Below are positions 4,545 to 20,863 of a DNA stretch of 38,558 nucleotides, in pieces (position 1 is the stretch's first letter; each line of letters begins with the position of its first letter). The stretch covers positions 1-38,558 of the forward strand of contig CACLXS010000010.1 of the NCBI GenBank assembly GCA_902610905.1. The letters run 5' to 3'. The notes below the pieces were generated by a model. The model ran no database searches. It worked only from the letters and a program-made list of their open reading frames with translations, and was not told where the DNA came from. Both the position numbers and the translations under genes were made by a program. This stretch comes from an uncultured SAR86 cluster bacterium. GTDB taxonomy: Bacteria; Pseudomonadota; Gammaproteobacteria; Magnimaribacterales; D2472.

Positions 4545-5776
4545 TTAGAATCTATATTATCTGCAACAATTTGTGCTGTATGTGCGCTAAGAGTCCAGCC
4601 TAGATGACCATGTCCTGCATGATAGAAAACCCCCTTCATTTTACTTTCTCTAGTTATAGGCATCATATTAGGAGTCATAGGTCTCAATCCAGCCCAAGGA
4701 GTATATGTCTCAGTGCTAACATTTGGAAAATATTTCTCTACCCATTTTAATAAAGGTTTAATTCTATCTTGTCTTATATCAGTATTTATTCCAGCAAGCT
4801 CTGCTGTCCCTGCAACCCTAAATCTATCGCCAAGTCTGCTAGCAACTATTTTTACGGGTTGATCGATTAAAGATACAGTTGGAGCACATTTTTTGGATAT
4901 TTCATCTTTAAGATCAATCGTTACGCTATATCCTTTAACAGGATATATATTCATCTTATCACCAAGTCGACTTGCAAAGCTTTGTGTGTTGACTCCTGCA
5001 CAAATGACAACATTATCAAATGAATCGTTAATTATTTCATTTTCATGTCTCATGGTAAGAACTAGCTTATCTTTTTGCCTGGTTATATATTCAACTGTTG
5101 TTTTAAGTTGAAGGATTGCTGAATATTTTTCTACAAGAATCCTCTCTAGATTCGTACAAAATTTATGAATATCACCACTTGCATCAGACTTGGTATATAT
5201 TCCGCCAAGAATTTTTTCATAATTTTTATTATTTTCGAAAGCTGGTTCAATTTCTTTAACTTCTTCAGTAGTTAATATATCCCACTCCATGCCCTCTTGA
5301 TGAAGCCATGAAACCTTTTCTTTATCTAGTTTGAATTCTTTTGCATTATCATAAAATCTTAGAATGCCTTTTTTAAGTAATTCAAATTCTATGCCTTCTT
5401 CATCGGCTATTTTGAAATAAATTTCCCTAGCTTTTTTCGCAAAATTAATTGTATCAAGAGTATTTTTTTTATGGTCACCCTTGAGAGTTGTCCAAAGAAA
5501 TCCGAGCATCCACCTATATTTTTGGATTTCAGGTGATGGATTAAATAATAATGGAGCATCGGGAGTAAACATCCATTTAATTCCGCTCACAACATTTTTA
5601 GTTGTATTCCATGTTTCTGCGTTACTTGCACTTAACTGTCCTCCATTGGCATAACTTGTTGCCATTGCAGGATATCTTCTGGAGTCAATAATAGTTACGT
5701 TATGACCTTTTTTTACAAGAGCATAAGCTGTAGTTGTACCAGCAATTCCAGCACCAATTACAGCTATTTTTTTCAT
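4541..5776 (-). CDS. dadA: D-amino-acid dehydrogenase (DadA-like FAD enzyme)
   Basis: 411 aa from the ATG at 5776 (six residues earlier a longer reading is possible but lacks conservation). It is a membrane-associated flavoprotein that oxidatively deaminates D-amino acids to 2-oxo acids, passing electrons to the respiratory chain. KIAVIGAGIAGTTTAYALV is the Rossmann FAD motif at the N-terminus; SYANGGQLSASNAETW follows as in DadA; the C-terminus has GLRPMTPNMMPI and the FAD-binding GHGHLGWTLS. The length is close to E. coli DadA (432). No alanine racemase gene is adjacent, so the physiological substrate is open. Confidence 0.9.
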   Translation of the reverse strand: MKKIAVIGAGIAGTTTAYALVKKGHNVTIIDSRRYPAMATSYANGGQLSASNAETWNTTKNVVSGIKWMFTPDAPLLFNPSPEIQKYRWMLGFLWTTLKGDHKKNTLDTINFAKKAREIYFKIADEEGIEFELLKKGILRFYDNAKEFKLDKEKVSWLHQEGMEWDILTTEEVKEIEPAFENNKNYEKILGGIYTKSDASGDIHKFCTNLERILVEKYSAILQLKTTVEYITRQKDKLVLTMRHENEIINDSFDNVVICAGVNTQSFASRLGDKMNIYPVKGYSVTIDLKDEISKKCAPTVSLIDQPVKIVASRLGDRFRVAGTAELAGINTDIRQDRIKPLLKWVEKYFPNVSTETYTPWAGLRPMTPNMMPITRESKMKGVFYHAGHGHLGWTLSAHTAQIVADNIDSN

Positions 5777-16520: not shown

Positions 16521-16550
16521 TTTACAACTTATATAAAATAGTATTAATAT
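16521..16550 (+). promoter_or_regulatory. Promoter of the metal operon
   Basis: TTTACA (16521-16526), an 18-bp spacer and TAATAT (16545-16550) form a plausible sigma-70 promoter. Its -10 overlaps the left arm of the CsoR-like operator, and initiation would fall at about 16557, next to the first start codon. Confidence 0.55.
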
Positions 16551-16565
16551 ACCCCCTATGGGTAT
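16549..16565. promoter_or_regulatory. CsoR/RcnR-family type operator
   Basis: ATACCCCCTATGGGTAT is an inverted repeat, ATACCC and GGGTAT around CCTAT. It has the AT-flanked G/C-tract layout of operators bound by the CsoR/RcnR/FrmR (DUF156) repressors. A gene for such a repressor is the fourth gene of the operon (17967-18227), so autoregulation is likely. The site covers the predicted transcription start and both candidate start codons of the first gene (16558, 16564). Confidence 0.75.
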
Positions 16566-17160
16566 GCACCTTTATATTTTATTTTTCATTCTAGTTTCAA
16601 CCAATATTGAAGCAAGACCTATCTCATATTCTGGTGGATCAACATTAATGATGTTTTCAGATAATATGAAAGATTCTCTTTATTATCATTATTCTCCTTC
16701 GTATAAATATTCTGTAGGAATTGAAAATCTTAAAGACAAAAATTTAAGAGATGAGTATTCTTATTTGAGATTTACGTATTTAATAAACAGGAAGAATAGT
16801 CTTCATTCTCAAAGAAACTTATATTTTCAGTCAGGACTAAGCGCTAAAAGTGGTAATGATCTTTTCTATGGAATACATGGTGATTGGGAGACTAGGAGAT
16901 GGTTTCTGGGTTTTGATACTAAGAAAGTAGAAAACAGGCTAAAAAGCTATAATCAAAACCACGTACAAATAGGTTTTGCTCCGTATCTTGGAGAATATGG
17001 TGATATACATACTTGGTTAATGCTAAAGACTAAAAAAACTTCATTAAAAGATAAAAGGTCTTCATATCCAGTTTTAAAATTTTTTAAAGGCAATACGCTT
17101 TTAGAATTTGGTTACAATAATAAGACTGATTGGGATATACATCTCATGTATAGGTTTTAG
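16558..17160 (+). CDS. Putative outer-membrane/beta-rich exported protein of the metal operon
   Basis: 200 aa from 16558, or 198 aa from the ATG at 16564. Residues 3-19 (MHLYILFFILVSTNIEA) form a signal peptide, so the start cannot be much later. The rest alternates aromatic and polar residues and ends in IHLMYRF; a C-terminal Phe after an amphipathic strand is the usual signal of outer-membrane beta-barrels. I recognise no family. Position as first gene before a His-rich HMA protein, a MerT-like transporter and a CsoR-type regulator suggests a role in metal passage across the outer membrane (inference). AGGAG at its end serves the next gene. Confidence 0.65.
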   Translation: MGMHLYILFFILVSTNIEARPISYSGGSTLMMFSDNMKDSLYYHYSPSYKYSVGIENLKDKNLRDEYSYLRFTYLINRKNSLHSQRNLYFQSGLSAKSGNDLFYGIHGDWETRRWFLGFDTKKVENRLKSYNQNHVQIGFAPYLGEYGDIHTWLMLKTKKTSLKDKRSSYPVLKFFKGNTLLEFGYNNKTDWDIHLMYRF

Positions 17161-17171
17161 GAGAAAATATT

Positions 17172-17594
17172 ATGAAATTACTTATAACTACATTATTCAT
17201 TGTTTCATCATGGGCAATGGCCTCAGAGCCACATGATCACGATGGTCATTCAGATATGATGCATCACTCACATGAAGGGCATCTTCACAATGAATTGGTT
17301 GATGGAGAAAAACTTGAGGTAAATCCTGAAAGGTTTGATAAATTTGTCTTCAATCTAACTAATACTCAAGTTGCTGTTATTAGTGTAAAAGGAATGGTGT
17401 GCGACTTTTGCGCGAGAGGCATTGAAAAAACATTCCAAAAAGATAAGTTAGTAAAAAAAATAGATGTAGATTTAGCACAAGGCAAAGTTTTGCTCGCCTA
17501 TGATAAAGGTATTGAAATTGTGTTTGAGGATATACAAAATAAAATACTAGCTAATGGTATAAATGCTATAAAAATGCAAATTTTAGTTATATAA
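17172..17594 (+). CDS. Periplasmic His-rich protein with HMA (MerP/CopZ-like) domain
   Basis: 140 aa. Signal peptide at residues 1-17, then a histidine-rich segment (residues 21-39, eight or more His in HDHDG/HHSHEGHLH runs), then a heavy-metal-associated domain with the complete GMxCxxC loop: GMVCDFC at 74-80 (C77, C80). HMA domains bind Cu(I), Hg(II) or Zn(II) and hand them to a membrane transporter. Export and the following MerT-like gene suggest a MerP-like periplasmic scavenger; the His-rich arm is not found in classical MerP and favours copper, zinc or nickel buffering. AGGAG lies about 8 bases before the ATG. Confidence 0.85.
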   Translation: MKLLITTLFIVSSWAMASEPHDHDGHSDMMHHSHEGHLHNELVDGEKLEVNPERFDKFVFNLTNTQVAVISVKGMVCDFCARGIEKTFQKDKLVKKIDVDLAQGKVLLAYDKGIEIVFEDIQNKILANGINAIKMQILVI

Positions 17595-17604
17595 GTTTAA
17601 GTAA

Positions 17605-17970
17605 ATGGACGATAAAACTACAAATTTCATATCGCTCTTTGCCTCATCATCAACTTTAATATGTTGTGCATTGCCAGCATTATTTGTTGTGTTAGGAGCA
17701 GGAGCATCTTTTGCAAGTTTGATAACTGTATTTCCCTTTTTAATAACCCTATCCCAATATAAGCTATACATAACAGTGTTTGCTTTAATAATGCTAGTGT
17801 TAGCAGGTTATGTAAATTATAAAACCTATTACATGCCTTGCCCCGCTGATCCAGAGCTAGGTAAGCTTTGTATGAAAACAAGGAAAAAATCAAGATACAT
17901 ATATTATTTTTCCTTGTTACTATTCATATTTGCAACAATTTTTACATATATCATTCCGAGATTAATATGA
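17605..17970 (+). CDS. MerT-like metal transporter
   Basis: 121 aa with three hydrophobic helices. The first contains vicinal cysteines C20-C21 in STLICCALPALFVVLGAGAS, the defining feature of MerT/MerC-type mercuric transporters. A second cysteine pair, C79 and C89, lies in the segment after the second helix (PCPADPELGKLC), again as in MerT. Classical MerT receives Hg(II) from MerP and passes it inward to MerA, but no mercuric reductase gene is present here, so the metal and the direction are uncertain. It is 10 bases behind the HMA gene and overlaps the regulator gene as ATGA. Confidence 0.8.
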   Translation: MDDKTTNFISLFASSSTLICCALPALFVVLGAGASFASLITVFPFLITLSQYKLYITVFALIMLVLAGYVNYKTYYMPCPADPELGKLCMKTRKKSRYIYYFSLLLFIFATIFTYIIPRLI

Positions 17971-18227
17971 GTCACGCGTGTCATAAAGAACAAATTCCAA
18001 GCATTAAAAGAGTAGAAGGCCAGATACGAGGTATTTTAAAAATGATTGAAGATGAAAAATACTGTATCGATATACTTAATCAATTAAAAGCTGTAAAAAA
18101 TGCTATTTCAACCGTAGAAGGGAAGATACTTAAAAATCATCTTCAGGCATGTGTAAAGGATGCTCTTACAGACAGTAATAATTTTGATGATAAAGTTGAT
18201 GAACTCTTAAAAACTCTCAAGAGATAA
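17967..18227 (+). CDS. CsoR/RcnR-family metal-sensing repressor (DUF156)
   Basis: 86 aa from the ATG at 17967, which overlaps the transporter stop. All-helical DUF156 fold: SIKRVEGQIRGILKMIEDEK is the family's helix 1 with its DNA-contact arginines. Ligand residues are C33, H58 and C62, with spacings of 25 and 4 that match the Cu(I) triad C36-H61-C65 of CsoR; RcnR and FrmR have His at the last position. H3, C5 and H6 at the N-terminus could add ligands. Copper sensing is therefore the best guess despite the MerT/MerP-like partners. Likely represses its own operon through the site at 16549-16565. Confidence 0.88.
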   Translation: MSHACHKEQIPSIKRVEGQIRGILKMIEDEKYCIDILNQLKAVKNAISTVEGKILKNHLQACVKDALTDSNNFDDKVDELLKTLKR

Positions 18228-18243: not shown

Positions 18244-18302
18244 ATGGTGCCCAGAGGAGGGATCGAACCACCGACACAAGGATTTTCAGTTCTTGGGTCT
18301 AG
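18244..18302 (-). repeat. Degenerate 3' fragment of tRNA-Phe (att-like repeat, left copy)
   Basis: It covers the CCA end, 3' acceptor strand, T arm and anticodon arm of tRNA-Phe. The acceptor 5' half and D arm are absent. Changes relative to the intact copy break one T-stem and one anticodon-stem pair, so it is not a functional tRNA. Beyond TCTA at 18299-18302 the similarity stops. Confidence 0.85.
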
Positions 18303-18336
18303 AATAAAAACCCTGTAAGAATAGATGTTTCAGCGG

Positions 18337-18360
18337 TTACTGTGCATATTACTGTGTATA
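18337..18360 (+). repeat. Tandem 12-bp direct repeat next to the left att-like copy
   Basis: TTACTGTGCATA is followed directly by TTACTGTGTATA (one difference), then by a partly inverted ACAGTGTAA (18364-18372). Short tandem sites close to an att core are often integrase arm or excisionase binding sites; that role is inference. The rest of the gene-free stretch 18303-18518 shows nothing further. Confidence 0.5.
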
Positions 18361-18518
18361 AGACAGTGTAATTTTAACAAAATTTTCACAAAAAATATGT
18401 AAAGTAATTATGAAACTTAGGTACTATTCTTTAAATTTTTACCAAATTACCTTCTCTTGATAACTGGACTAACTAAGTATTTGAGAAAGCAATTTCTAGA
18501 AGAAAAAATTGAAAAGCG

Positions 18519-18905
18519 ATGAAACAATATAAAACTATTTACTTTATTTATGATGCTGACGGCGGATTCTTTAATGAACTCAAATATTGGTACAACAAAC
18601 ATATTAAAAAACAAGGAAGTGAATGTGAGTTGTGCGGTATTTCGCACAGCAAATACTTTGTAAGACTTGAATGGTTAAGTTTTATCAGACGACTAAAAAA
18701 TGATTACAGAGTCAAAGTTCTTCATAGAGATGAGGTGCCACAAAAGATCAAAGATATGAATCGATATTATCCCTCTGTGATTGGTGAGACAACTGAAAAT
18801 GAATTAGTTGAGTTGATGGATAATATATCTTTTGTTGATTTTACAAAACCTTCTAACGTTGAAGAACTTGAACAACAAATCAGAGAATCAATTAAGAGAC
18901 AATAA
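18519..18905 (+). CDS. Uncharacterised CxxC protein in the tRNA-Phe islet
   Basis: 128 aa. It opens with a beta strand and acidic loop (YFIYDADGGFFNELKYWYN) and then has a CELCGISH segment with C36, C39 and H43, a possible metal or redox site. The middle contains FVRLEWLSFIRRL and the conserved-looking LHRDE. The arrangement recalls an unnamed family with an LYNADGG-type start, a CxLC-x3-H site and a later HRDE, loosely similar to thiol-oxidoreductase DUF393 proteins, but I cannot assign a function. The upstream ribosome-binding site is weak. First gene of the islet. Confidence 0.6.
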   Translation: MKQYKTIYFIYDADGGFFNELKYWYNKHIKKQGSECELCGISHSKYFVRLEWLSFIRRLKNDYRVKVLHRDEVPQKIKDMNRYYPSVIGETTENELVELMDNISFVDFTKPSNVEELEQQIRESIKRQ

Positions 18906-19026
18906 AATTAAAAGTAATCTGACAACTCAAAAAAATTTAAACAACTTTCTGTTTATTTGAGATGTATCTAAGTTGTTACATAACTGTTGTTTGACCAAAT
19001 CCTTAAAAATGTGTAGTTTGATATAT

Positions 19027-19437
19027 ATGAATAAACAAAAAATTAAAAAACCAAGTCTATTTAGAAGACTAATAATGAATATTGTTTATGGTTGGAGAAG
19101 GGTCATGGATGTAAGGTATAACCCTTTAAAGTATGTTCCTGACCCAAGTTTACAGACATACTTTATGTTAGTCTTGTTTACTGTATGGAGTATTTTTTTT
19201 GGTTTGGTGGCAGCAAATTATTTAGGGTTTTTTAATTTCAACATAGTGGCGAGTGTCATAATCCATATTGCAATAATATTGCCTTTAGCGTTCACAAATG
19301 CAGTTTTTGTTGATGCTGAAAGAGATGGTGATAAATGGTTGAAAGAGTGGAAGGAAGAGCAATCAAGATATAAGTTAGTTGTAAATAGACTTAAAACTAA
19401 AAACTTGGTTATATGGAATCCAAACAATGAGGCATGA
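19027..19437 (+). CDS. Uncharacterised membrane protein in the tRNA-Phe islet
   Basis: 136 aa from the ATG at 19027; an in-frame start at 18973 would add 18 poorly conserved-looking residues. A basic amphipathic N-terminus (KKPSLFRRLIMNIVYGWRR) is followed by two membrane helices at about residues 48-66 and 72-92. The soluble, charged C-terminus holds DAERDGDKWLKEWKEEQ and ends NLVIWNPNNEA. I recognise no family. It lies between the CxxC protein and the 39-aa Cys-rich protein and could be part of the same cargo unit. Confidence 0.55.
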   Translation: MNKQKIKKPSLFRRLIMNIVYGWRRVMDVRYNPLKYVPDPSLQTYFMLVLFTVWSIFFGLVAANYLGFFNFNIVASVIIHIAIILPLAFTNAVFVDAERDGDKWLKEWKEEQSRYKLVVNRLKTKNLVIWNPNNEA

Positions 19438-19520
19438 TTATTTTTGGTGCTTACGATAATGAAAACGACTATTTTATTTTCACTGCAGGTTGTTTAGGTC
19501 AAACTGAATAGGAGATAACT

Positions 19521-19640
19521 ATGGAATGCGGTTGCGGAAGAAGTCCAACAGGTAAATGTATCGGTTGGCATAAACTATCAGAAGAAGAGTATCAAGAAAA
19601 GTTAAAAGAATATAAAGATAAAGAAAAGGAAAAAGACTAG
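19521..19640 (+). CDS. 39-aa Cys-rich protein with a CDGSH-like motif
   Basis: Short gene with a good ribosome-binding site (GGAG, 19511-19514, 6 bases before the ATG). Residues 2-17, ECGCGRSPTGKCIGWH, show C-x-C-x2-S-x4-C-x-G-x-H. CDGSH iron-sulfur proteins use C-x-C-x2-S-x3-P-x-C-D-G-x-H with three Cys and one His binding a [2Fe-2S] cluster; here the same residues occur with the second half one residue closer and Ile in place of Asp. The rest is a highly charged helix (SEEEYQEKLKEYKDKEKEK). A cluster- or zinc-binding mini-protein is inferred. Located in the alternative-oxidase islet. Confidence 0.6.
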   Translation: MECGCGRSPTGKCIGWHKLSEEEYQEKLKEYKDKEKEKD

Positions 19641-20088
19641 AAGTTCTGGAAACTTCACATTGGGTGTAAAACACTATTCTTAAATAAAATGCGACAGCAG
19701 GTTAAAATCAGGGGGAAATTAAACCTGCTGTCATAGAAAGTTTATTCGGGGATAAAGCAAACTTTCGATTTTAATTAAACATGCATGATGTGATAAGAGA
19801 GTGACATTGATGAAATGCTTTGTTAATTAAGAGCAAATTACACGTCATATTTTAGAAAATAAATTTTAGAGTACTTGGCAACTGTTTTTAAATGTCTTCA
19901 TGATCATATTTTGAGAAATGGAGGGTATGAACCCTCCATGATTTCTACAGAGTCAGCATTACCCAATAGGGAGAGGAGTACTGACTTGTATTATTATATA
20001 TATTTATAATTGATTATCAATATAATTTATAATATAATTGAAACTATTGGTTGTTCTCATCAATTTTAACTCTTTAAAACAAAAACTA
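19641..20088 (+). other. Hairpin-rich non-coding block upstream of the alternative oxidase
   Basis: No convincing gene occurs in these 448 bases. Four inverted repeats are visible: an 11-bp stem GACAGCAGGTT/AACCTGCTGTC (19693-19732, 18-base loop), an 8-bp stem GAAAGTTT/AAACTTTC (19736-19766), a 9-bp stem ATGGAGGGT/ACCCTCCAT with a 4-base loop (19918-19939), and AGTCAG/CTGACT (19951-19986) enclosing CCCAATAGGG. None has a strong T tract. This could be a structured RNA, an att/arm region or a replication or transfer site; I cannot decide. A sigma-70 promoter follows at 20010-20038. Confidence 0.5.
20010..20038 (+). promoter_or_regulatory. Sigma-70 promoter of the alternative oxidase gene
   Basis: TTGATT (20010-20015), a 17-bp spacer and a consensus TATAAT (20033-20038). 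The -35 is part of a perfect palindrome TTGATTATCAA (20010-20020), a possible repressor site. The predicted start at about 20045 leaves a 44-base leader before the ATG at 20089. Confidence 0.7.
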
Positions 20089-20655
20089 ATGTCAAATTTT
20101 TTTGCTTTATCAATGACAAAATTCTTTCGCTTAATAGCAGACACATTTTTTGCAAAACGATATGGTCATAGAGCAATAGTACTAGAGACTATTGCAGGTG
20201 TGCCCGGTATGGTTGCTGGTATGTGGGTTCACTTAAAAAGTCTTCGTAAAATGGAAACAGGATACGGTCCAATGATAAGAGAACTACTTGCAGAGGCAGA
20301 AAATGAAAGAATGCATCTAATGTTCTTCATAGAAATTACAAAACCTAACTTGCTTGAAAGGTGTCTAGTATTATTCTCTCAAGGAGTTTTTTGGATATTT
20401 TATTTTTTACTATATGTGTTTTTTCCTAAAACTGCACATAGAATGATACATCACTTTGAAGAAGAAGCAGTTAAATCATATTCAGAATATCTTGAAATGG
20501 TAGAAAGTGGAGTAGTAGAAAATGTACCTGCACCAAAACTTGCCATTGATTATTATAGAATGTCTAAAGATGCCAGACTCTCTGATTTAATTATAAAAGT
20601 TCGTGAAGATGAACAGCATCATAGTGATATTAATTACAAATACTCAATCAAATAA
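20089..20655 (+). CDS. aox: Alternative oxidase (diiron ubiquinol oxidase)
   Basis: 188 aa from the ATG at 20089; the in-frame TTG at 20038 lies inside the promoter -10 and is rejected. All diiron ligand motifs are present: LETIAGVPGM (E33), NERMHLM (E73, H76), FEEEAVKSY (about E124-E126) and REDEQHH (E175, H178). Alternative oxidases sit on the membrane surface, take electrons from ubiquinol and reduce O2 to water without pumping protons, giving resistance to cyanide, sulfide or NO that block heme oxidases. It has its own promoter and is the best identified cargo of the tRNA-Phe islet, suggesting horizontal gain. Confidence 0.95.
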   Translation: MSNFFALSMTKFFRLIADTFFAKRYGHRAIVLETIAGVPGMVAGMWVHLKSLRKMETGYGPMIRELLAEAENERMHLMFFIEITKPNLLERCLVLFSQGVFWIFYFLLYVFFPKTAHRMIHHFEEEAVKSYSEYLEMVESGVVENVPAPKLAIDYYRMSKDARLSDLIIKVREDEQHHSDINYKYSIK

Positions 20656-20696
20656 CATCACATTTTTTTTTATCAATCGTTATTAAAGTTCTAAAC

Positions 20697-20726
20697 CTAG
20701 AAAATTTTTATATAATTTTTTTCTAG
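20697..20726. terminator. Possible bidirectional AT-rich terminator between aox and tRNA-Phe
   Basis: CTAGAAAA and TTTTCTAG form an 8-bp inverted repeat around an A/T-only loop, 41 bases after the aox stop and also downstream of the minus-strand tRNA. T runs occur on both strands. The stem is weak. Confidence 0.35.
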
Positions 20727-20787
20727 ATTGCTAAAAAGTTTTTTGAGTAAGGTAATGTCTTTCCTGATTTAATTTAGTGGATTTAAA

Positions 20788-20863
20788 TGGTGCCCAGAGG
20801 TGGGATCGAACCACCGACACAAGGATTTTCAGTCCTTTGCTCTACCAACTGAGCTATCTGGGC
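20788..20863 (-). tRNA. tRNA-Phe (GAA)
   Basis: 76 nt including an encoded CCA. The acceptor stem GCCCAGA/TCTGGGC (20857-20863 with 20792-20798) pairs perfectly. The D arm GCTCAGTTGGTAGAGC, the anticodon stem AAGGA/TCCTT with loop CTGAAAA (anticodon GAA at 20828-20830), and the T arm GGTGG-TTCGATC-CCACC are all complete. Its 3' end faces the islet. It lies 65 bases downstream of the dehydrogenase gene but has its own promoter. Confidence 0.98.

Follow-up and report, generated by a model that had tools for sequence, protein, structure and literature searches.

The CsoR repressor of Streptomyces lividans has a type-2 operator in which positions 3-8 and 14-19 of ATATACCCCTNAGGGGTATAT are conserved (PMC3902906). 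In CsoR proteins, a Cys-His-Cys triad forms the Cu(I) site and a Tyr and a Glu form its second shell, roles that are taken from the M. tuberculosis CsoR. Classical MerT, encoded in merR-merT-merP-merA operons, imports its metal. Some bacteria do without the copper ATPase gene copA: SAR11 has been reported to lack it (PMC4771312).

The operon described here, from a SAR86 cluster bacterium, places a MerT-like gene under the control of a predicted CsoR repressor. The operon is real and its reading as a copper system is well supported and likely, with repressor binding and metal response inferred. It appears to be a new CsoR copper operon: it has new parts, its operator is unusually placed, it and CopA nearly exclude each other, and it is probably mobile, the mobility again being inferred. 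No description of such an operon was found in the open-access literature searched (CsoR with MerT; SAR86 with copper or mercury; MerT in copper transport).

Gene organization and encoded proteins

The window (the whole 38,558-nt stretch of DNA analysed) is contig C10 of a SAR86 cluster genome (1.02 Mb, 27 contigs, 79% complete). The operon lies on the + strand at 16558-18227 and encodes, in order, an outer-membrane barrel (OMP), an HMA protein, a MerT-like protein and CsoR (Table 1). The closest named relatives are SAR86 single-cell genomes (93-94% identity in gene 3). A mechanically called TTG start for csoR at 17868 was rejected, as this frame overlaps merT and the relatives align from the ATG at 17967. 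Upstream, a cytochrome P450 gene (15148-16503) ends 45 nt before the operator; this neighbour was found only in the close relatives L034, L035, L037 and L038.

Table 1. Features of the operon and the adjacent tRNA-Phe sequences (window coordinates)
Feature	Position	Strand	Remarks
-35-like element, TTTACA	16521..16526	+	18-nt spacer to the -10 element
-10 element, TAATAT	16545..16550	+	last two bases are operator bases 1-2
CsoR type-2 operator, ATACCC-CCTAT-GGGTAT	16549..16565	+	covers the end of the -10 element, the predicted transcription start and codons 1-3; no binding data
Predicted transcription start	16557..16558	+	coincides with or adjoins the A of the ATG; an inference from where the -10 element lies and from the missing Shine-Dalgarno sequence
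Gene 1, OMP	16558..17160	+	200 aa; predicted 12-stranded beta-barrel; no Pfam family
Gene 2, HMA	17172..17594	+	140 aa; signal-peptide-like start, His-rich arm, HMA domain (GMVCDFC); PF00403, 27 bits
Gene 3, MerT-like inner-membrane protein	17605..17970	+	121 aa; PF02411 weak in the window copy
Gene 4, CsoR	17967..18227	+	86 aa; PF02583, 94 bits; ATG overlaps the gene 3 stop (ATGA)
tRNA-Phe 3'-end fragment	18245..18301	-	57 nt at 93%; resembles an attachment site; csoR ends 17 nt before it
Intact tRNA-Phe	20788..20863	-	3' end faces the operon; element with an alternative-oxidase gene lies between

The regulator matches PF02583 (DUF156; 94.3 bits, cut-off 22.8) and is the only DUF156 protein of its own genome. 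It can be aligned with solved CsoR proteins, and residues Y32, C33, H58, C62 and E79 are invariant in 28 CsoR copies, as is an N-terminal histidine, H6. InrS is also among the proteins matched by this CsoR and has a Pro at the place of the Tyr in the alignment.

The HMA protein has six residues that are invariant in 27 copies: H34, H37 and H39 of the arm, and M75, C77 and C80. It does not meet the cut-off of the MerP equivalog TIGR02052 (22 bits, cut-off 92.55). CopZ models outscore the MerP model yet also remain below their cut-off, so that the domain reaches the thresholds of neither the copper nor the mercury families.

Gene 3 of the window does not meet the PF02411 (MerT) cut-off (18 bits against 32.9), and all 27 of its relatives match this family weakly, with E-values as low as 1.1e-7. 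Comparison with MerT using hhalign gives a probability of 92% (E-value: 6.8e-7). C20 and C21 (a pair in TM1) and C79 and C89 (a pair in the loop) are invariant; the TM1 pair and the second loop Cys align with those of classical MerT. Gene 3 is homologous to MerT but diverged below the family cut-off, and it is not called MerT here. Its structure model is of low confidence (pLDDT 67) and too poor for a fold search.

The model of the gene 1 product has 12 strands, a mean pLDDT of 81 and a C-terminus of Tyr-Arg-Phe. A PDB fold search with it identified no family, only general barrel matches (KdgM- and VhGalP-like, TM about 0.5-0.6). If the copper reading is correct, a beta-barrel family without a Pfam model would gain a function.

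Operator and promoter

The palindrome ATACCCCCTATGGGTAT occurs without mismatch at 16549-16565, and nowhere else in the 1.02-Mb genome does a site have fewer than 2 mismatches. By window statistics alone this operator is weak (0.66 chance matches expected at <=2 mismatches), and so conservation is the real test. Using loci chosen by gene 3 (MerT-like) and not by the motif, ATACCC-N5-GGGTAT was found to be perfect at 26/27 SAR86-order loci and at 76/77 named loci covering the region; the sole imperfect operator in both sets comes from one cell lineage and has a 4-nt spacer. A chance palindrome is rejected, as the site is conserved at all loci that can be read there. The window operator also meets the published type-2 form, TAC-N9-GTA with G/C tracts (compared with PMC3902906).

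Of the 75 non-redundant loci, 68 have the start codon at operator position 10; in the remainder it is at position 16 (five SAR92-type loci) or at 9 and 18 (once each). Because the start codon is fixed relative to the operator, the protein start is dictated by it, as Met-Gly-Ile or Met-Gly-Met. All 68 loci have GGT as codon 2, whereas other Gly codons of the same genes are GGT in only 35% of cases.

A column logo of the 68 loci places the -10 element at operator positions -4 to +2 (T 0.90, A 0.99, then a fixed AT) and the -35 element at -26 to -21, 16 nt above the -10. The TA of the -10 element is present in 60 of the 68 non-redundant loci (shuffle mean 8, maximum 18), and a Shine-Dalgarno-like sequence in 3/68. 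As the -10 element ends 7 nt before the ATG, the mRNA is expected to start at or next to this codon. In the SAR92-type loci the ATG is 6 nt later, and a TTGACA and a possible -10 element (TACCCT, within the operator) are displaced by about 5 nt in the same direction. This retention of the -10-to-ATG distance is the main argument for a leaderless start. The mRNA is thus likely to be leaderless, although this is inferred and the start has not been mapped. A 17-bp stretch would then serve as operator, probable transcription start and protein start, a very compact promoter.

The initial annotation, made from the sequence alone, had described a DUF156 repressor with a Cys-His-Cys triad at the end of the operon, a gene for an outer-membrane-like protein at its beginning and a His-rich arm on the HMA protein, all of which held in the family matches and conservation. 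Its proposal of CsoR-type control is supported by the triad, the type-2 operator and their conservation, with binding and metal response inferred. The claim that the operator lies over the predicted transcription start and first ATG also held in the cross-genome comparison and against the published type-2 operator; the start itself is inferred and there are no binding data.

Distribution and possible transfer

Gene 3 was the only query in a search of 61 SAR86-order genomes, chosen mostly from the genus, family and order of the window's own genome, and it was found in 27. The four-gene order is present at 27/27 complete SAR86-order loci. When GTDB genomes were scanned using an alignment of gene 3, 151 loci were returned, of which 80 were kept, and nearly all of these 80 named loci have the same order. 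Their gammaproteobacterial sources include SAR86, SAR92/Porticoccaceae, OM182, K189A and AqS3; their alphaproteobacterial sources are IMCC14465, Rhodobiaceae and others. Some locus labels derive from metagenome bins and may reflect misbinning (L048, L059); the IMCC14465 and SAR92 H231 genomes are firmer. In a four-protein tree, alpha and gamma lineages are intermixed at several points, a pattern suggestive of joint transfer of the genes.

Variations on the gene set were also seen. In 17 loci of one branch, csoR is followed by a fifth gene that has a 4-nt overlap with its stop (for example, L055:4626-5285). This gene, absent from the window, matches PepSY_TM where scanned and could possibly encode a membrane metal reductase. 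In many gammaproteobacteria, HMA and MerT-like genes form pairs that are accompanied by neither CsoR nor the barrel (a wider family, seen at L128-L149, L192, L193, L198 and L199), and most of the host genomes also have CopA. Plasmid searches with the window OMP, the L194 MerT and the L194 OMP gave no matches. With the window MerT, the only matches were distant: a Variovorax soil megaplasmid (without helpful neighbours) and Vibrio HMA fusions.

Association with tRNA ends

Besides the two tRNA-Phe sequences of the window (Table 1), intact tRNA-Phe genes were found 13-17 nt after csoR in L034, L035 and L041. In L042, the operator is preceded at 38 nt by an intact tRNA-Phe, and csoR is followed at about 130 nt by a 3' fragment; in L045 and L051 tRNA-Phe fragments flank the operon on both sides. 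The bracketing repeat of the alphaproteobacterial locus L088 is a tRNA-Arg end (51 nt, 98%). All 20 intact tRNAs near the operon (20/20) have their 3' end toward it, representing about nine independent contexts since close relatives are included. Brackets of tRNA 3' ends were seen in L042, L045, L051 and L088; the window has one side only and most loci have none. In L042 and L051, only the four genes are located between the repeats, and the 1.9-kb interval contains no recombinase.

This frequent position beside a tRNA 3' end, with bracketing in a few loci, gives the operon the appearance of a mobile cassette of ~1.9 kb. The pattern is read here as insertion of such a cassette at tRNA ends, the mobility being inferred; insertion by a recombinase acting in trans is possible but a guess. 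The tRNA-bounded form illustrates a route by which a resistance trait could travel between streamlined genomes.

Several other elements are present at these sites. The 2.5-kb insert at 18245-20863 of the window contains an alternative oxidase gene (20038-20655; PF01786, 225 bits) together with two small genes that match no Pfam family, and L036 has a C5-cytosine methylase gene at the same tRNA-Phe site. This site may be a hotspot for small exchangeable cargo. In L052, a 71-nt direct repeat (86%; 2880-2946 and 4715-4785) with no tRNA match brackets the operon and may represent a second kind of insertion site. GCACACAG-type repeats are found directly before the distal tRNA fragment in L042 and L051 (about 4690-4720), and the similar CTGTGCATATTACTGTGT at about 18340-18357 of the window. 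Conceivably, GCACACAG-type repeats are recombinase arm sites.

Metal specificity

MerA (TIGR02053) was over its curated cut-off in none of 57 genomes, nearly all of them carriers of the operon. Hidden MerA reductases were considered and rejected, every match being below the cut-off. No MerR is encoded in the operon loci, where CsoR is the sole regulator. At the diverged locus L194 (genome G145), genes for an outer-membrane efflux protein, a multicopper oxidase, CusF (84 bits), OMP, HMA and MerT are contiguous. The lack of MerA, the Cu(I)-class regulator and operator, and the copper-related neighbours at L194 make copper by far the likeliest metal. The metal is therefore likely to be copper and not mercury, an inference in which Cu(I) binding and release are untested.

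Near-absence of CopA in carriers

CopA (TIGR01511 with PF00122) was found in 0/61 SAR86-order genomes, with 14/14 controls positive; SAR86-order genomes without the operon lack it too. As a separate observation, no P-type ATPase of any kind (PF00122) was detected in these 61 genomes (G000-G060), an unusual gap for bacteria. Of a set of 48 genomes, which were almost all carriers and came mainly from outside SAR86, three have CopA. Carriers that do have CopA include IMCC14465 and two Porticoccaceae. In a class sample of 274 genomes, CopA was over the cut-off in 211, distributed as 0/9 barrel-gene carriers (from 8 families) against 211/265 non-carriers (Fisher p 1e-6). Within Porticoccaceae, CopA is encoded by 2/31 carriers and 44/81 non-carriers; the contrast remains in genomes of 1.7-2.95 Mb (2/28 against 30/52), while CopA is absent below 1.7 Mb. 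The p-values overstate the case as relatedness was not corrected for. The loss of CopA in streamlined plankton is already known; the link to the operon is new. Replacement of CopA by the operon is an inference and is not proven, as the loss also tracks small genomes and shared ancestry.

The initial annotation had been silent on both this near-absence of CopA in carriers and the tRNA-bounded layout. Its statement that there is no reductase held at the MerA cut-off in the 57 genomes. The four-gene order, for which it had proposed a search in marine gammaproteobacteria, was found there and in alphaproteobacteria as well. It had further suggested a distinct copper (or mixed metal) system rather than mercury resistance; copper is supported by the genome comparison, the type-2 operator and the CusF/multicopper-oxidase context, with the metal response inferred.

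Proposed model

The gene set, operator, promoter layout, residue conservation, MerA and CopA absence and tRNA repeats are supported by comparison. From these, a self-regulated copper-handling operon is likely as a whole; copper binding, derepression, the leaderless start, the direction of transport and mobility are inferred. The model proposed is the following. When cytosolic copper is low, CsoR would occupy the operator, covering the -10 element, the start and the first three codons, and RNA polymerase would be blocked. As cytosolic Cu(I) rises, it would be bound via Cys33-His58-Cys62 and CsoR would leave the DNA. A probably leaderless mRNA would then direct synthesis of the barrel, the periplasmic His-rich HMA protein, the MerT-like protein and more CsoR, closing the loop. 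The Cys pairs of the MerT-like protein would pass Cu(I) from the cytosol to the HMA protein, and the barrel would provide the outer-membrane step. In carrier lineages the gene set would do the work of CopA and spread as a small tRNA-targeted cassette.

Induction by excess copper makes export or sequestration more likely than import. That the MerT-like protein works outward is nevertheless inferred and is the least certain step; no precedent for export by a MerT-like protein was found in the open-access literature searched. If the model is correct, a MerT-type protein can serve copper and can perhaps be run outward. Both SAR86 and SAR92 are abundant surface-ocean bacteria, and copper handling without CopA by them, if true, would be by a route undescribed in the open-access literature searched. 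A bolder reading is possible but less likely than not: marine planktonic proteobacteria may have exchanged a near-universal Cu+ ATPase for an ATP-independent thiol relay (outward MerT-like protein, His-rich periplasmic HMA protein and new barrel), with the CsoR switch and a leaderless start codon combined in one site. The whole would pass between alpha- and gammaproteobacteria as a cassette of 1.9 kb that lacks a recombinase and sits at tRNA 3' ends.

Alternative explanations

The most serious alternative is compatible with the copper reading: the near-absence of CopA may be a by-product of lifestyle and ancestry that is unrelated to the operon. All searched SAR86-order genomes are without CopA whether or not they have the operon, as are Porticoccaceae below 1.7 Mb. 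Against this, the contrast between carriers (2/28) and non-carriers (30/52) is found among Porticoccaceae of 1.7-2.95 Mb, and no class-sample carrier, from 8 families, has CopA. The balance tips slightly against a by-product. The presence of wider HMA-MerT pairs without CsoR or OMP in genomes with CopA counts against a copper system that replaces CopA. A further alternative retains copper and reverses the transport, such that the MerT-like protein imports, redistributes or stores the metal for supply and not for tolerance. The known direction of MerT is inward and the TM1 and loop Cys pairs are kept; oligotrophs, moreover, may be copper-limited. However, CsoR would switch the genes on at high cytosolic Cu(I), so that an importer would feed its own induction, and the diverged L194 set adjoins detoxification genes. 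Import is considered unlikely.

Two other proposals change the metal or signal and are both very unlikely. The operon could serve uptake of, or resistance to, mercury or soft metals in general, with CsoR replacing MerR; this has in its favour the homology to MerT and MerP, which in their classical forms serve Hg(II). It is opposed by the lack of MerA over the cut-off in 57 genomes and by the canonical CsoR operator and triad, and Hg import without a reductase would be harmful. Alternatively, the regulator could be a sensor for Ni(II) (InrS-like), persulfide or formaldehyde. InrS, a member of the same DUF156 family and one of the matches, also uses Cys-His-Cys, and H6 of the operon CsoR is invariant. 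The second-shell Tyr and Glu of CsoR are invariant as well, however, where InrS has Pro at the Tyr place, and the operator is of type 2, as in known CsoRs, and not type 1 as for RcnR/NreA. A Cu(I)-responsive CsoR controlling a copper-handling operon remains the preferred reading.

Comparison with known systems

The tRNA-linked form of the operon is similar to tycheposons and additive tRNA-linked islands (PMC10872708) in having cargo at tRNA genes, repeats of tRNA ends (as in the additive islands) and streamlined aquatic hosts. Tycheposons have a described size of 4-200 kb and their identification involved a tyrosine recombinase, whereas the putative operon cassette is only about 1.9 kb and has no recombinase. 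A leaderless mRNA under a CsoR/RcnR-family repressor, inferred for the SAR86 operon, is shared with nreAXY of Mesorhizobium, where it was shown by 5'-RACE (PMC12724321). NreA is Ni-responsive, however, and its type-1 operator lies between the -35 and -10 elements, not over the start codon. In regulation, the closest system is CsoR-copZA of S. lividans (PMC3902906), with a CsoR repressor and the operator ATACCC-N5-GGGTAT. The targets differ, being the CopZ chaperone and CopA ATPase in S. lividans and the barrel, periplasmic HMA protein and MerT-like protein, without CopA, in SAR86. As in the merR-merT-merP-merA operon, MerT-like and HMA genes adjoin and the MerT Cys pairs are kept; the SAR86 operon differs in having CsoR in place of MerR, no MerA, the barrel gene first and a His-rich arm on the HMA protein. 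Finally, the diverged OMP-HMA-MerT set of L194 is located inside a Cus/Cop-type cluster (CusF, multicopper oxidase and outer-membrane efflux protein), whereas the SAR86 operon is free-standing and has a CsoR of its own.
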